Part shown: positions 3,342 through 51,133 of the stretch, piece after piece
Layout: each line of letters starts with the position of its first letter
Numbering within the stretch: position 1 is the first letter of the stretch
From: Clostridiales bacterium
Lineage (GTDB): Bacteria; Bacillota; Clostridia; Lachnospirales; Lachnospiraceae
Length of the DNA: 51,133 nt
Reading direction: 5' to 3'
NCBI GenBank assembly: GCA_021199255.1
Contig: JAJQIK010000091.1
Coordinates: 1-51,133 of the forward strand
Notes under the pieces: generated by a model
Database searches by the model: none
What the model saw: the letters and a program-made list of their open reading frames with translations, nothing else
What the model was told of the DNA's origin: nothing
Translations under genes and position numbers: made by a program

Positions 3342-3399
3342 TTCTCGGAAACGGTGTCGGCACCGTTATCGGTATCGTTGTCGGTAACGTTTCCGAGAA
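3342..3399 (-). promoter_or_regulatory. four-unit 12-bp operator-like array in the binding-protein leader
   Basis: On the plus strand TCGGNANCG occurs four times at exact 12-bp spacing: 3345-3353, 3357-3365, 3369-3377 and 3381-3389. The array is bounded by a perfect 12-bp inverted repeat (TTCTCGGAAACG at 3342-3353, its complement at 3388-3399). An inner 7-bp inverted repeat (AACGGTG/CACCGTT, 3350-3367) is also present. The half-sites resemble LacI-family operators, which fits a sugar ABC operon, but no LacI gene is in the window. Confidence 0.6.
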
Positions 3400-3507
3400 G
3401 TTGGGTTAAGCATAACACCCTGCACCATTTTTGACAAGGGTTTTTTTAGATTTTACAGCATTTTGGATATTTTACACAGAAAGGACTAATCTTTTTTATG
3501 TAAAATG

Positions 3508-3580
3508 CACGAATGGTATCCCCAACGCAGACGCTTGCGCAACCTTTCCCAAGAGTCTGCTTATGGGGATACCATTCGTG
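3508..3580. terminator. long hairpin with 17-bp perfect arms
   Basis: Arms 3508-3524 (CACGAATGGTATCCCCA) and 3564-3580 are perfect complements. An inner stem GCAGAC/GTCTGC (3527-3532, 3555-3560) surrounds a 22-nt loop. On the minus strand it lies 67 nt past the phosphorylase stop and is followed by GCATTTTACAT, so it could terminate that transcript weakly. Its inner part matches the hairpin at 20859-20935. Confidence 0.6.
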
Positions 3581-3640
3581 TAATTCATCTAACTGCAATT
3601 CATTTCACTACAATTCATCTAACCGCAATTTATCCGGCGG
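3581..3640. repeat. four imperfect 15-bp tandem repeats
   Basis: YAATTYAT recurs at 3581, 3596, 3611 and 3626, a 15-bp period. The best match is AATTCATCTAACYGCAATT at 3582-3600 and 3612-3630, with one difference. It lies between the hairpin and the phosphorylase stop codon. Confidence 0.6.
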
Positions 3641-3646
3641 CTTCTT

Positions 3647-6600
3647 TTATCTGAGCTCTACTACCATCTCAGCCACCTCGCCTTTGCGGACGGCCTGCGC
3701 GCCTGCCGCGTCAAGCGCCGCCCCCTGTACTTCTTCTTTCCTGCCGTCCCGGTAGGTCACTGTCATTCTGTCCACCGTATACTCTCCGGGGACATATGCT
3801 TTCTGCTCCGCCAACAGATAGGTAACCGGAACCGTCCCTAAGAACATGGCTTTTACCTGCTTATCCGCTCCCACCAGATAGGAGGGCAGAAGGGGCGCGA
3901 AAGCCAGCTTTAATTCTCCCTGCTGTACGGTAAAAGGATGCAGGCCAAACATCATCAGCGACCACATATGGATAAATTCCACGGTGGAACCGCTCAGGCG
4001 CGCCACAAAGCCTTTACCGTGAATGTTCCGATTGGGGTTCTTGCTGCTGACGATAAAGGAAGAGTTCTCATAGATGCTTCTTCCATATACCCCGGGGTCT
4101 AAGAACGGAACCGCCGCCCGGTGGAAATCCTCCGCAAATTCCTGATACATACCGGATTTTAATAATTCCAGCAAATACTTATATTCCATGTGTAGCCAGA
4201 TGGATTCATTTTCCAGCCAGCCCGGATTAAACGCCTTGCAGCGGCCCACCTCAAAGGAAGCCTCCGCCAGGGAAGCGTTCACCTTGTACATCTTGAGGGT
4301 TTCGTCATAGAGGTCGCTGTTTTTCACGCTGTCATAGAGCTTCTTCTTATCCGCCATGGAATGATCCAGCTTCAGATAACGAACCGGTCCTTCCAGAAAC
4401 AGGGGAATCTTCTTCACCGCAAAATGAAGCGGATGAATCCCCTCCTCGTCTTCCGTATATTCGGTCACATCATAGGCGAAATAAGTGGGGCAGATGCCCT
4501 CCTCCATGCTGCAGGCTTTCTGAATACCGATCTCCACAATCTCCCGGAACAGCTGTAAGGAGGACACCAGCTCTTTAGCGCTCTTCTCCACCCGCGAGCC
4601 CTCAATCCCGTTATAAACCTTCTCCCAATAGGATTCCTTAAGGTCGTTGATCCGATTCCAATAGGAAACCACCTCCTGCCTGGTCTGAAGCGCCTCCTTT
4701 TCTTCATTGACTACTTTGGTCACTTCATCCAGCAGCCAGGCCGCCTCGGAAATCATATTGACATTTATGTCATATTTTTCAATAGCCCCCAGCGTATAGG
4801 TCAGCATACGCCCTAATTCATAAGTTTCCGCCATAGAAGAACCCAGCAGCCCCGGCAGACCGTTCAGCGCGTCGTACCAGCCGGGCTTGCCGCCCTCCAT
4901 CTCAATTCCCATTCCGTAAGCGTCCAGGGCGGTAAACTTCGTGGTGCAGAGAATCACCAGCTTCTCCATCAGGGAAGAGAACACCACTTCTCCCGCGCCC
5001 CTGTCGCTTTTTACCAGTTTGCAGTCCGTATCCCGTCTGCTTTCTTCGTTCAGCGCATGATACTGGCGGATACCTCCCGCCGTCTTTTCATAACGCTTCG
5101 CCCTTTTATGGATCGCCACCTGGGACAGGAACCAGGTATAGCTCTCCTCAGTCAGCAATTCCTGCTCCTTTTCCGGATAAAGGTTCAGATAGCTTTCCAG
5201 CAGATCCAGATTATAAGTCCAGTGGTCGGACCAATAGCCCTCTCCGAAATTACCGTTCATCTGGCTGACCGCCTGCTCCATAACCCGGTTGAACAGTTCT
5301 CCGGCTTCCTCCTCGCTCACCTGCGTCCGGCACTCCTCCAGCACCCGGAAGAAATGTCCCGGCGTAAAGGGCTTCTGCAAAGCGTTCCGCAGCTTTTCCC
5401 GATCGGCTTCTGGCATGGAGGCAAAAATATCCTCTCCCGTTTCTCCGGGCAGGACATAAGTAACCTTCTCAATAGAAAGAGGATTGTACCCGTCTAACTG
5501 CAACAGGTTATAGAAGGTTTTGATATTCTCTGTTCCCACGTAGGGCGTGAAGAAATTATCGCACCTTCTGTTCTGGTTCACATCGCGGTAGCTGCCGTTT
5601 CCCTGCGTATAGAACTCCGGCAGCATGGCAAAGTAATTGTACTCCCTCTCTAAATCCCCATGCTTTCTGGAATATACATAGAATATTTTATTGCCTCCCA
5701 ACACAATCGGGAAACCGCCCCGCAGCACGTTATCCATATAGGTATACCGACAATACGCGTCAAAATCAGGACACGCCGTATGGGTATCGATTTTGTCGCA
5801 GAGTTCCTCCGTCAGTTGTCTTGACCGAAGCAGTTTTTGCTCGAAAAACGCGCCGTCCATTCTCCCGGATACAAATTTCTGCAAGGCCGCATAATTGCCG
5901 ACCTGCCCCATGACCTCATATACCACGACGGATTCCGAGGGCTCCAGCCTCCTCTGTATTCCGTAAAAGCTACAGGGAAACTGGTTCTGGGTCACCTGCT
6001 CCGCCCCTAAAACGCCCTGAAGACCGTTCTTTTTGAATTTGACCGGAGTAGTCATCGATAAATCATAGCCAAAAACCACGTCCGGGTCTACCACCGCGGG
6101 CAGCCTGGCGCCGTCTGCGGTGCAGCCAAAGGAAAAATTCCCCTCAACCACCTCTGTTACCGCCGCCGTATCCACAATACTCGCCCTAGTACGGTAGAAA
6201 GGCACTTTCGTCTCCAAATGTTCTACCTGCATCCAGGCTTTCACCAGATTTCCCATGGTCTTTAAATCCTCATTGCTCACGCCATAAGGAATAAAAGCGG
6301 GCATACCGTCCAATAGCTCCAGTTCCCTCGCCTGATCCGCGAGATTCGTAATCTCCACCTTCCTGACCAGCGCTCCCACCTTTTCTTCCGGCAGGGTAAA
6401 ATAGGTCACATGGGTTTTCATCTGATGCTTTTCGTTAGTTTCTTCAATTTCCAGGCCATTCTGATAGATGGCCATATAATGAGGCTCCTTTTCTCTGGCA
6501 AAAGCCTCGAAATACTTTCCGTCCACCCGCATAAACGTGCGGAACCCTGTACGCTTCACATTTTGACAGCACTGGTGGGCGGGGGAAAATTCCATGATCG

Positions 6601-6766
6601 CATGATCCTTATTCTCCGAACCGAAGGTGGCCACGCACTGACCGCGGTTTACATAGTAACACCACACCGGAATCCCATGAATACCGCTGATTCCGGGCAG
6701 GAAACTGGCAAACGCAGATTTTTTCCCATAATTGTTGATAACAAACGCCTTCTCCTGATCACTCAT
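3647..6766 (-). CDS. GH94-like glycoside phosphorylase (cellobiose-phosphorylase superfamily), 1039 aa
   Basis: This is probably a cytoplasmic enzyme that splits a beta-glucoside with phosphate to give a sugar 1-phosphate, the usual chemistry of COG3459/GH94 and the related GH149 and GH161 families. The N-terminal part looks like the beta-sandwich domain (GIHGIPVWCYYVNRG near residue 26). A YRDVNQNRR segment near residue 393 resembles the sugar-binding YRDxxQ motif. WSDHW near residue 512 is my candidate for the catalytic Asp. At 1039 residues it is longer than classic cellobiose phosphorylases (about 800) and nearer GH149/GH161. The ATG at 6766 has GGAGG, which belongs to a repeat element. 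Sitting next to an ABC importer, it probably acts on the imported oligosaccharide. The exact substrate is not readable. Confidence 0.8.
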   Translation of the reverse strand: MSDQEKAFVINNYGKKSAFASFLPGISGIHGIPVWCYYVNRGQCVATFGSENKDHAIMEFSPAHQCCQNVKRTGFRTFMRVDGKYFEAFAREKEPHYMAIYQNGLEIEETNEKHQMKTHVTYFTLPEEKVGALVRKVEITNLADQARELELLDGMPAFIPYGVSNEDLKTMGNLVKAWMQVEHLETKVPFYRTRASIVDTAAVTEVVEGNFSFGCTADGARLPAVVDPDVVFGYDLSMTTPVKFKKNGLQGVLGAEQVTQNQFPCSFYGIQRRLEPSESVVVYEVMGQVGNYAALQKFVSGRMDGAFFEQKLLRSRQLTEELCDKIDTHTACPDFDAYCRYTYMDNVLRGGFPIVLGGNKIFYVYSRKHGDLEREYNYFAMLPEFYTQGNGSYRDVNQNRRCDNFFTPYVGTENIKTFYNLLQLDGYNPLSIEKVTYVLPGETGEDIFASMPEADREKLRNALQKPFTPGHFFRVLEECRTQVSEEEAGELFNRVMEQAVSQMNGNFGEGYWSDHWTYNLDLLESYLNLYPEKEQELLTEESYTWFLSQVAIHKRAKRYEKTAGGIRQYHALNEESRRDTDCKLVKSDRGAGEVVFSSLMEKLVILCTTKFTALDAYGMGIEMEGGKPGWYDALNGLPGLLGSSMAETYELGRMLTYTLGAIEKYDINVNMISEAAWLLDEVTKVVNEEKEALQTRQEVVSYWNRINDLKESYWEKVYNGIEGSRVEKSAKELVSSLQLFREIVEIGIQKACSMEEGICPTYFAYDVTEYTEDEEGIHPLHFAVKKIPLFLEGPVRYLKLDHSMADKKKLYDSVKNSDLYDETLKMYKVNASLAEASFEVGRCKAFNPGWLENESIWLHMEYKYLLELLKSGMYQEFAEDFHRAAVPFLDPGVYGRSIYENSSFIVSSKNPNRNIHGKGFVARLSGSTVEFIHMWSLMMFGLHPFTVQQGELKLAFAPLLPSYLVGADKQVKAMFLGTVPVTYLLAEQKAYVPGEYTVDRMTVTYRDGRKEEVQGAALDAAGAQAVRKGEVAEMVVELR

Positions 6767-6771
6767 ACTAA

Positions 6772-6875
6772 TCCTCCATTTCTGAGCAACTTGTTGCGAA
6801 ACGGCGGCGAGAAATCCGCGAAGGCGGTTTCTCGTCTGCCATCAGGACTATTTGCTTTCGCTTAGAAACAAATAG
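6772..6875 (-). repeat. interspersed palindromic repeat, copy A
   Basis: Read on the minus strand, an outer hairpin (CTATTTG/CAAATAG, 6848-6875) is followed by CTGATGGCAGA. Next comes a stem CGAGAAA-CCGC/GCGG-TTTCTCG, then GCAACAAGTTGCTC and AGAAATGGAGG, the last being the ribosome binding site of the phosphorylase. It is nearly identical to copy D (22109-22203) over the stem and 3' half. Confidence 0.75.
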
Positions 6876-6880
6876 CCAAA

Positions 6881-6980
6881 TCCTCCATTTCTGGAGCGTT
6901 AACGACGGGCGAAGAGAAAGTCCCGAAAACAGCTGCTCTTCTTCCCTCAGACAAACTTGTGACGCTCCGGCACAAATTTG
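6881..6980 (-). repeat. interspersed palindromic repeat, copy B
   Basis: This copy has the same modular order as copy C: CAAATTTGTG/CACAAGTTTG pair, GGAGCGT, a GAAGAG/CTCTTC stem with a degraded interior, ACGCTCC, then AGAAATGGAGG. The outer GGAGCGT/ACGCTCC arms pair perfectly. The ribosome-binding-like end is not followed by a gene here but by copy A. It begins 20 bp after the HAD phosphatase stop. Confidence 0.7.
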
Positions 6981-7000
6981 GGTATCTGGCGGCGTCCGCC

Positions 7001-21966: not shown

Positions 21967-22070
21967 ATTAATCTCCATTCCGGAGCGTTAGCGACGGGGC
22001 GAAGAGAAATCCACGAAAGTGGTTTCTCTTCTGCCATCAGACAAATTTGTGACGCTCCGGCACAAATTTG
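21967..22070 (-). repeat. interspersed palindromic repeat, copy C
   Basis: Minus-strand order: CAAATTTGTG / CACAAATTTG pair (22041-22070 region), GGAGCGT, CTGATGGCAGA, then a stem GAAGAGAAA-CCAC/GTGG-TTTCTCTTC (22001-22031). ACGCTCC, pairing with GGAGCGT, and GGAATGGAGATTAAT directly before the aldolase ATG complete it. On the plus strand the inner stem closes on a GAAA tetraloop. Confidence 0.75.
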
Positions 22071-22072
22071 AG

Positions 22073-22107
22073 TATGAAAAATCAGCATATCAATGTGATT
22101 TTTCATA
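22073..22107. repeat. perfect 12-bp hairpin between repeat copies C and D
   Basis: TATGAAAAATCA (22073-22084) and TGATTTTTCATA (22096-22107) are perfect complements with an 11-bp loop that can extend the stem (CAT/ATG). It fills the gap between the two repeat copies. Confidence 0.7.
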
Positions 22108-22108
22108 T

Positions 22109-22203
22109 TAATCTCTATTCCTGAGCAACTTGTTGCGAAGCGGCGGCGAGAAATCCGCGAAGGTGGTTTCTCTTCTGCCATCAGGCAAATTTGTGGCGCT
22201 CCG
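22109..22203 (-). repeat. interspersed palindromic repeat, copy D, overlapping the mtnA 3' end
   Basis: This copy is nearly identical to copy A through stem and 3' half (GAGAAA..TTTCTC, GCAACAAGTTGCTC) but ends GGAATAGAGATTAATATG, like copy C. Its distal part (22181-22203) is the last codons and stop of mtnA (…ERHKFA), so the repeat contributes coding sequence to that gene. Confidence 0.7.
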
Positions 22204-49115: not shown

Positions 49116-51133
49116 CCTGTTTTTTGGGGAATTGCCTCTTCAGAGCAGATATATTTCCCAATGCCATGATAATAGGCAAGCAGGAAGAAGATCAGCGTCA
49201 GCGCTGCGTATTTTCTGAAACGGCTGCCTGCACGCGCCCAATTCACCAGAGCCGCCACCTTTTCCTTTTTTTCCTCTTCCGTCATGCCATGCTTTTTATC
49301 CGCAAAATACAGCATAAGGTAAAGCAGGCCTGATATCATGGCAACCGTCGCGTACAGTTCCACATGGGAAGTATCGCCCGTCTTTGGCTCGTTATCGGGT
49401 ACAGTATCCGTGCCAGATGCGGGCTGCCCCTGCGCCGAAGCAGGGGCTTCACTTACCGCAATTACGCTGCTCTCTACCGCATAGCCGTTGAAAGCCACGG
49501 TTTGGGCGCTGCTGTCCGAGCTGCTGCCCGAGCCCTCATCGCTTCCGTTACTCCTGTCCCCGGAGGTTCCGCTGCTTTCTCCCGTTCCTCCGGGCTCTCC
49601 TGTACCGCTGCTTCCTCCCGTTCCGCCGGTCTCTCCTGTACCGCCGTTTCCCTCCGTTCCGCCGGTCTCTCCTATACCGCCGTTTCCCTCCGTTCCGCCG
49701 CTTCCTTCAAAAGCGGCAGCAATGGTATGGGACTCCTGTACGTTATCGAATGTATAATATTGGGTCTCGCCCGCCTTATACGCGCCGGTTGGGACATATG
49801 CGCCCGCCACGGGCGGATTTACCTCTGTTCCATCCACCGTTATGGATTTAACGCAGCAATTTTCATTGGGCGTGATGGCAAAGGTCTGGCTCTTCCCTGC
49901 CTCCACTAATACGCTTCCGCTCGGCGAAATGCTGCCGCCCTCCCCCGCCGTCGCAGAGATCGTCCAGGTCGTAGCTGTATTCGCTATCCACTTTGCATAG
50001 ACAAAAGTGGTTGCTTCGATGGAGGTATTGGTAAAATCAAATGGATCGCCATTTCCCGTCACCCAGCCTACAAAGGTATAGCCGGATTTTACAGGCGCTG
50101 TCGGCTCCGTCGCCGTCCGGCCGCTTAAGATGATCTGCGGCTTCTGCTCTGTTCCATCCGGATATGCGGTATGATCGTCACAAAAGGTCACGGTGTAATA
50201 ATCGATGGCTGCGGCAGCATCCGCCCCGTTTACTGTCACGGAAACGCCCGTGTCTATGTAACCTGTGCTGTCCGCCGCGTTGGTTGTGTCATAGATTACG
50301 TAGGTATTGTCCGTAAGGCTTGCATAATCATTGATGAAATTTGAACCGCCGTCAGAGGTCAGCGCAAAGGTTTTTCCATGGTCTTGCCACTCTGCACCGT
50401 CCTTGTTGACGGTGATGCCAACTGAATATGTTGCGGGAGCCGTAACCTCTTGCAGCTTCCAGCCATACCAATAATTATCCGTGGTATCGCCATCATCTGC
50501 AGCCTTATATGCGGCTACCGCTTTGCTAAGCGTTGCGGCGTCCAGTTCTCCGCCGTCCTCCGCCTGAAAAGTGACGGTGCGTTCTGTAGGGCAGTTATAA
50601 AAAATGTATTCTGGTGAATCGCTCGCGTTTGGATCATTTATCTTTATTGGCGTGACGACGCTGTTCTCCGAAACTCTAATGCTTAATTTCTCTAAGTTTT
50701 TACAACCCGCGAAAACCGATTTCTGAAAAGCCGCCATCGAAACCGGCACTTCTATCTCTTCCAATCCGCTACAGTCACGGAATGCCCCTGCGTAAATATA
50801 CTCCACATCTCCACATATTTTAACAGAAGTTATATTACTACATCTCCGAAAACCGTACTCCCCAATATAATAACCATCATCCTTCATGTTAATCGTTACT
50901 GCGCCGGTAAACCCACATTCGCAAAATACATATCCGCCCAGATAGGTAATCTCCCGGGGCAGAACCAAATTTCCATCCATACCAGAACATTGATAAAAAG
51001 CATTGTTGTTTATCTCAGTCACCCTGTCTGGTATCGTCAGTCCGCCGGTAAACCCGCTGCAGCCACAAAACGCGCTTTTCCCTATCTCTGTCACCCTGTC
51101 TGGTATTGTCAGCTCACCGGTTAACCCGCTGCA
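49112..51133 (-). CDS. BspA-type leucine-rich surface protein (partial, N-terminus off window)
   Basis: About 673 residues are visible; the frame stays open to the window edge, so no start is seen. Order: LRR_5/BspA repeats (TIPDRVTEI..AF..CSG pattern, to about residue 170), an InlB-type B-repeat (SGYTFVGWVTGNG, near 340), a second beta repeat, and a Gly/Thr/Glu-rich linker. A PKTGD motif follows, then a hydrophobic segment, a charged stretch and a further hydrophobic helix. PKTGD plus helix resembles a sortase signal, but about 75 more residues follow, so membrane anchoring is also possible. It probably mediates adhesion. The stop overlaps the rplM promoter. Confidence 0.85.
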   Translation of the reverse strand, partial: CSGLTGELTIPDRVTEIGKSAFCGCSGFTGGLTIPDRVTEINNNAFYQCSGMDGNLVLPREITYLGGYVFCECGFTGAVTINMKDDGYYIGEYGFRRCSNITSVKICGDVEYIYAGAFRDCSGLEEIEVPVSMAAFQKSVFAGCKNLEKLSIRVSENSVVTPIKINDPNASDSPEYIFYNCPTERTVTFQAEDGGELDAATLSKAVAAYKAADDGDTTDNYWYGWKLQEVTAPATYSVGITVNKDGAEWQDHGKTFALTSDGGSNFINDYASLTDNTYVIYDTTNAADSTGYIDTGVSVTVNGADAAAAIDYYTVTFCDDHTAYPDGTEQKPQIILSGRTATEPTAPVKSGYTFVGWVTGNGDPFDFTNTSIEATTFVYAKWIANTATTWTISATAGEGGSISPSGSVLVEAGKSQTFAITPNENCCVKSITVDGTEVNPPVAGAYVPTGAYKAGETQYYTFDNVQESHTIAAAFEGSGGTEGNGGIGETGGTEGNGGTGETGGTGGSSGTGEPGGTGESSGTSGDRSNGSDEGSGSSSDSSAQTVAFNGYAVESSVIAVSEAPASAQGQPASGTDTVPDNEPKTGDTSHVELYATVAMISGLLYLMLYFADKKHGMTEEEKKEKVAALVNWARAGSRFRKYAALTLIFFLLAYYHGIGKYICSEEAIPQKTG
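49618..49710 (-). repeat. 36-bp tandem repeat in the Gly-rich linker
   Basis: Two full 36-bp units and a partial third, differing by single bases, encode repeats of the type GETGGTEGNGG in the surface protein. Flanking linker sequence is a more degenerate version. Confidence 0.7.

Follow-up and report, generated by a model that had tools for sequence, protein, structure and literature searches.

A HAD gene and a 1039-aa open reading frame in a Lachnospiraceae contig (JAJQIK010000091.1) are separated by a gap filled with two short, folded repeats, one of which ends in a Shine-Dalgarno sequence (SD) directly in front of the next start codon. What are these repeats, and how can they lie at such a place? 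A first-pass annotation of the window, by which we mean the whole stretch of 51,133 nt that was analysed, postulated a repeat family with two copies in the gap 6767-7000 and again at 21967-22203, built on a conserved stem and supplying the SD of the gene that follows. Both pairs are present, with all four copies on the minus strand (Table 1). The annotation had also named beforehand what would count against it, namely no more copies, no link to gene starts and no conserved stem; what was found is many more copies in the host genome and its relatives, a strong link to gene starts and stems which are kept and covary. The observation is confirmed and is larger than first noted; its interpretation is supported in part.

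Table 1. Copies of the repeat in the window and their parts. The limits of copies A, B and D are approximate.
Feature	Position	Strand	Description
Copy B	6882..6980	minus	diverged element without HP0; CTGAGGGAAGA core, altered P2, end is GAAATGGAGG
Copy A	6767..6881	minus	element without HP0; 3' of the SD of copy B, directly 5' of ORF 3647-6766
Copy A, P1 hairpin	6846..6877	minus	loop pairs with GCTCAGAAA near the 3' end, one mismatch in copy A
Copy A, CTGATGGCAGA and helix P2	6806..6845	minus	GGC clamp, bulged A, GAGAAA/TTTCTC stem
Copy A, terminal GGAGG	6773..6777	minus	6 nt 5' of ATG 6766 (GGAGG-ATTAGT-ATG)
Copy C	21967..22108	minus	complete element with HP0; leads class II aldolase ORF (Pfam Aldolase_II)
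Copy C, HP0	22072..22108	minus	TGAAAAATCACATTGATATGCTGATTTTTCA and stem bases on either side
Copy C, P1 hairpin	22042..22070	minus	loop CCGGAGCG pairs with CGCTCCGG right before the terminal SD
Copy C, terminal GGAG	21973..21976	minus	6 nt 5' of ATG 21966
Copy D	22109..22202	minus	element without HP0, between mtnA-like ORF and copy C

Copy C alone of the four is complete; the other three lack the first hairpin, HP0. The neighbouring genes had been named as HAD and phosphorylase. Pfam supports the first name; the second was given to ORF 3647-6766, which has no Pfam match and shows a partial match to the GH149 beta-1,3-glucan phosphorylase model that lies below the curated cut-off (132 of 1150 bits). 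At the other pair the final residues and the stop codon of the mtnA-like ORF are supplied by copy D (22181-22202), the stop codon (22181-22183) being the TGA of its CTGATGG. The true start of the aldolase ORF is probably ATG 21966, since the start called mechanically at 21978 (ATGGAG) falls in the SD of copy C; gene callers can thus place starts inside the element. The window holds other repeats as well. Two long inverted repeats, with arms of 29 and 27 nt, lie 3' of the 1039-aa ORF at 3496-3592 and 3342-3399, one of them inside a 522-aa ORF, and three 36-nt repeats are arranged head-to-tail at 49566-49673 within a long minus-strand ORF.

A full element is about 130-170 nt long and is read here on the coding strand. 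From 5' to 3' it consists of an SD-bearing flank, HP0, an optional small hairpin, hairpin P1, the sequence TGAT, helix P2, a short hairpin, and a pseudoknot strand with GGAG, followed after about 6 nt by the start codon. HP0 is nearly invariant in one large subgroup, where it reads GTGTGAAAAATCA-CAC-TGAT-GTG-C-TGATTTTTCACAC, and in host-type copies it is followed by the small hairpin AATCCTCT..AGAGGATT. An example of P1 is GGCTATTTGTG-CCGGAGCG-TCACAAATAGCC. P2, after TGAT, is made up of a clamp of 3 bp and a long stem, with a bulged A, and between it and the 3' pseudoknot strand lies a short hairpin of the GCG..CGC type. The 3' end is CGCTCCGG-AATGGAG, in which CGCTCCGG pairs with the loop of P1 to form the pseudoknot. 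This pairing occurs in several versions, among others CCGGAGCG:CGCTCCGG, TTTCTGAGC:GCTCAGAAA, GACGAGCAC:GTGCTCGTC, GTCAGAGC:GCTCTGAC, GCAGACG:CGTCTGC and GAGAACGC:GCGTTCTC. The first-pass annotation took CTGATGGCAGA for a 5' module paired with itself. This is not how it pairs; its GGC pairs with a downstream GCC across the bulged A. The GAGAAA/TTTCTC-type stem which it also described is found in copy A as P2. By inspection the left end GTGTGAAAAATCA has no similarity to the reverse-complemented right end TAATCTCCATTCCGG, i.e. there are no terminal inverted repeats. Rfam gave no covariance match at the gathering score in the window, and scans by E-value returned only sub-threshold, chance-like matches.

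The modular structure with its pseudoknot is real by covariation. In an alignment of 43 sequences, taken from 48 which had been preselected for a pseudoknot of at least 6 nt and a body of 85-108 nt, 94.8% of the cells are paired and 27 of the 45 pairs have changed on both sides; the alignment beats all 500 shuffles on each measure (0/500) and is far above versions slid out of register. A further alignment of 30 sequences, nearly all from other genera, gave 95.9% paired with 39 of 45 pairs doubly changed. All 16 pairs of HP0 covary in it, with few one-sided changes (5) against 66 double ones, and GU pairs are present in P1 and in the pseudoknot. The model to which this alignment was fitted did not contain the pseudoknot, and five of the 30 rows were added by hand from loci with the HP0 pattern; the pseudoknot is 92.1% paired in it, and 5 of its 7 pairs have changed on both sides. 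The P2 clamp is found in the versions GGC:GCC, CGC:GCG, GCG:CGC and CCG:CGG, and 23 of 41 distinct configurations are fully paired, compared to a mean of 8.1 and a maximum of 14 after shuffling. The complementarity between P1 loop and right end is on average 7.7 nt within a copy and 4.2 nt when partners are swapped, a comparison which favours the pseudoknot to some extent because complementarity to P1 was itself the criterion by which right ends were picked.

What the fold does to the terminal SD was predicted for a sample of 60 copies (52 for the empty site). The predicted probability that the SD is unpaired is 0.26 in the nested fold, 0.41 when the pseudoknot strands are set apart, and 0.50 in the joined empty site. 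Setting the strands apart raised the predicted accessibility by more than 0.2 in 22 of the 60 copies and lowered it in 8, which suggests that the pseudoknot partly frees the terminal SD.

The family is numerous and is widespread among Lachnospiraceae of the gut. A script run over the stretches fetched from the host genome identified 57 copies with a right end, of which 40 have HP0, 14 lack it and 3 lie at contig edges; BLAST of the same genome gave at least 43 places with copy A as query and at least 46 with copy C. With up to 3 mismatches the HP0 pattern is found at 42 sites there, and its reversed pattern at none. The core 11-mer with at most one mismatch has 173 matches in the host genome against 42 for the reversed pattern, with 60 exact ones among the matches listed; in the window alone its 3 matches with at most one mismatch are not significant, as 12 of 100 shuffled sequences give that many. 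Many of the copies share 97-99% identity with one another or with the consensus. Outside the host a covariance model built from the family has a match in 41 of 200 Lachnospiraceae genomes (40 of 199 genera), and the HP0 pattern is found in 14 of 299 family genomes. A scan of species genomes with the HP0 pattern gave at least 108 stretches, and the 80 listed by title belong to Lachnospiraceae, to Acetatifactor and to MAGs that are related to these or carry a loose name. Plasmids have no match to the element and no viral contig has the exact HP0 pattern. A diverged copy is present in three unannotated faecal contigs filed as phage (MT838414, MT836788 and MT837007), one of which was inspected; these contigs may in fact be of bacterial origin. 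Copies in tandem or nested in one another occur at five loci (L027, L031, L033, L047 and L200), where the terminal SD of one element is the upstream SD of the next, and at eight loci (L211, L326, L309, L339, L320, L300, L172 and L204) there are internally deleted copies which retain HP0 and the right end.

The element lies in sense orientation within the spacer between SD and start codon. The loci analysed for position contain 226 HP0 copies, 159 of which have a right end recognised by a strict pattern; a later script located the right end in most of the other 67. In 140 of the 159 copies the terminal SD is followed at a distance of 5-7 nt by ATG, GTG or TTG, compared to 18, 25 and 22 in control windows further on, and 117 of the 159 starts lead an ORF which either has at least 60 aa or stays open as far as the stretch extends. 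Of the 57 readable host copies, 48 have a start codon at 4-8 nt, in 43 cases at exactly 6 nt, and 9 have none at that distance; a long or open ORF follows in 33. Of the 25 covariance-model matches inspected across genera, 22 lead an ORF. A relaxed core pattern, which admits chance sites, has a start at the expected distance in 29 of 77 rows, compared to 15 of 425 control sites. On the other side of the element, 159 of the 226 HP0 copies have GGAG, GAGG or AGGA within the 11 nt directly upstream, compared to 16 for the 11 nt beyond, and about 30% of the HP0 copies have no clear upstream SD. With an SD before the element, and an SD and start codon after it, the two flanks look like a start site which the element has split. 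A conserved leader-peptide frame was also considered and was rejected: of 96 distinct bodies it runs without a stop through 39, and the other frames do so through 33 and 43. A further comparison of the frames is void because its control frames have a stop inside HP0 itself.

The split can be seen directly where relatives have kept the uninterrupted site. For gatB (Pfam GatB_N) the covariance model found the element in one of 30 loci, that of the host, where the end of gatA is followed by ATGGGGGGATTAG, the element and GGAGATTAGC-ATG; the other 29 loci lack it. One of 30 loci is likewise filled for atpC (identified by Pfam, searched with the covariance model). This allele, in genome G014, reads AAGGAGTAAATA, the element with its end ...GGATTA, and GCGTATGGCTGA, and empty alleles read AAGGAGCGGTAGCGTATGGCTGA in G019 and GGGAGTAAATAGTGTATGGCTGA in G042; as an example, filled AAGGAGTAAATA-element-GCGTATGGCTG can be compared to empty AAGGAGCGGTAGCGTATGGCTG. 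For trpC (Pfam IGPS) two of eight loci are filled, independently in G005 and G014, four poorer loci being left out, and the empty allele in G071 is GGAGAATAGTATGAT. The covariance model found no other copy in these 68 gatB, atpC and trpC stretches. At these three genes the element has thus been inserted into the SD-start spacer of an existing gene. Both gatB and atpC are normally required for growth, and since they carry the element it must allow translation. In other members of the genus the atpD-atpC gap of eight loci (L411-L413, L415, L417, L419, L420 and L430) holds other palindromic stretches, which are unlike the element; several of them have GGAAGAATGC..GCATTCTTCC in common.

Direct repeats flank the copies more often than chance. 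In 25 of 124 non-nested copies the element is preceded by the same 4 nt that follow its terminal ATGGAG (of the 159 rows, 12 that had no ATG anchor and 23 that were nested are left out), compared to 12.6 expected and reached in 0 of 2000 permutations; these were made in eight single-genome groups and two mixed ones (GTDB loci and others) and are hence partly within-genome. When ATTA tails are excluded the match is found in 17 of 73 copies against 5.6 expected. Runs of at least 11 nt are shared by both flanks in 16 of 172 copies, compared to a mean of 2.2 and a maximum of 8 when permuted over all copies; AATGGAGGTTA and TGGAGGATGACAG are examples of sequences found on both sides. The duplication is nevertheless seen in a minority, as the flanking 4-mers differ in 99 of the 124 copies, and in host copies the 3' tail is almost always ATTA irrespective of the 5' flank. 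Variable sharing together with a fixed tail may reflect a right end that is coded by the element with occasional exchange against the target, or duplication in some events only. This bears on the claim that the repeat supplies the SD. In effect it does, since the inserted stretch ends in GGAG in register with the start codon; in the minority whose flanking repeat runs through the SD (16 of 172 copies with at least 11 nt in common), the SD may instead have been copied from the target and not belong to the element.

On balance we think it likely that we are dealing with a small mobile element which is non-autonomous, folds as RNA and inserts in sense between the SD and the start codon of existing genes, its mobility being deduced from copy number, identity and empty sites. 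The insertion target would be the SD itself (consensus AATGGAG-NNTA), presumably chosen for its match to the 3' end of the element. After insertion the old SD would stay behind upstream, and the new copy would place an SD, coded by the element or taken over from the target, as far from the start codon as the old one had been; this re-presentation in register could explain why even genes such as gatB and atpC tolerate the element. The pseudoknot would take up the CTCC-type strand beside the terminal SD and may leave the SD free for the ribosome. The element would then be selfish in the main, with repair of the start site built into it, rather than a regulator acquired for a purpose, and the enzyme that copies or moves it would act in trans. 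No mobilising gene was recognised near the element among proteins of at least 130 aa from 108 GTDB loci; these were clustered, and inspection by eye of the 14 largest clusters showed transporters, signalling proteins and enzymes. Two candidate partners were rejected for lack of association within the genus, in a comparison where genomes called negative may hold diverged copies, as a host-type query was used and at most 20 candidates were scored per genome: a Y1 transposase occurs in 5 of the 13 genomes with the element and in 3 of the 12 without it, and a reverse transcriptase (RVT_1) in 4 of 13, host included, and 6 of 12. The host genome, 99.28% complete, has no Y1 transposase (PF01797), a draft being liable to miss it.

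How the element moves can be modelled in several ways. Transposition as DNA by an unlinked transposase, MITE-like or through single-stranded hairpins as in IS200/IS605, is a serious possibility, albeit one on which we would not wager. It postulates that the left end is recognised through the hairpin HP0 and that GGAG(N)TTA serves at either end as the motif for cleavage or targeting, which agrees with the single orientation, the target-like motif on both sides, the near-invariance of HP0 in one large subgroup with so few one-sided changes, and the fixed ATTA tail of host copies as an element-coded right end. It is at variance with ends that lack terminal inverted repeats, with Y1 loci that lack HP0, and with flanks that have 4 to 13 nt in common in a copy-specific way, something unexpected if the target is not duplicated; PF01797 is moreover absent from the host and from the element-rich genomes G002, G006 and G014, although drafts can lose transposase genes. 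Retrotransposition, in which a copy of the element RNA would be made at a nick in the SD, with pairing of the 3' GGAG(N)TA to the target as the priming step, would account for flank repeats of varying length and for an RNA-like fold with GU pairs in P1 and pseudoknot. It would also fit that 14 of the 54 host copies away from contig edges lack HP0 and have the right end, and that no HP0 copy clearly lacks the right end. Selection for a working SD alone could, however, preserve right ends, internal deletions occur too, and RVT_1 is absent from the element-rich G002, G005 and G006, so that we regard this route as unlikely. The fuller version of it, a structured RNA parasite (a bacterial SINE) that recognises its target through the SD, enters the SD-start spacer as a copy and brings along or restores an SD which keeps the gene translatable, appears to us equally improbable.

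Little credence is given to exchange by short homology or gene conversion, where a cassette between two SD-like repeats would replace the single SD of another gene; tandem arrays and AATGGAGNNTA-like runs of varying length on both flanks agree with such an exchange, yet about 11 nt is short for a RecA-type reaction and many flanks mismatch. Very improbable, finally, is a conserved cis-regulatory RNA or leader-peptide ORF which controls the following gene. The position at the start codon, the pseudoknot adjoining the SD and an NTG at the start of HP0 in 140 of 149 copies, many of them 3' of an SD-like flank, would suit it, but copies precede unrelated genes and the orthologues in relatives do without the element.

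Several known systems resemble the mobile element proposed here in part. REP/BIME and the palindromic elements derived from IS200/IS605 share with it hairpins, a single orientation and a short target motif; it differs from them in the pseudoknot, in insertion at start sites and in a host without a Y1 transposase. The omega-RNA or HEARO-type RNAs of IS605-like elements are also structured RNAs which end at the insertion boundary, whereas the present element has no Rfam match, and no linked nuclease gene was recognised by eye in its neighbourhoods. In translational riboswitches with a pseudoknot at the SD the fold likewise adjoins the SD; they differ from the present family, which has no match in Rfam and consists of dispersed, near-identical copies before unrelated genes. 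An open-access literature search found no description of such an element, and we know of no other small interspersed repeat with such a target and fold. The nearest published kind, as far as the account in PMC3049150 goes, is the group of BOX, RUP and SPRITE elements of Streptococcus pneumoniae, which like ours are small, modular, strongly folded, present in many copies per genome and probably parasitic, and which can form ORFs and folded transcript leaders. According to the same account they are over-represented between convergent genes (PMC3049150). The present family is set apart by its place in the SD-start spacer, its one orientation, its covarying pseudoknot and its in-register SD. MITEs, as defined in that account, are also short, non-autonomous and folded, sometimes with duplicated target bases (PMC3049150); the present element has no terminal inverted repeats and shows target duplication in a minority only.

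If the SINE reading were true, this would be the first mobile element that targets the ribosome-binding site. Small interspersed repeats of bacteria usually sit where they do little harm. The present family enters a spot where an insertion should silence the gene, and its fold and SD appear to prevent the silencing. If confirmed, the finding would provide a test case for how a pseudoknot beside the SD affects initiation and would prompt a search for an insertion enzyme directed to the SD; it would link mobile DNA to translation initiation and offer dozens of natural 5' leaders per genome.
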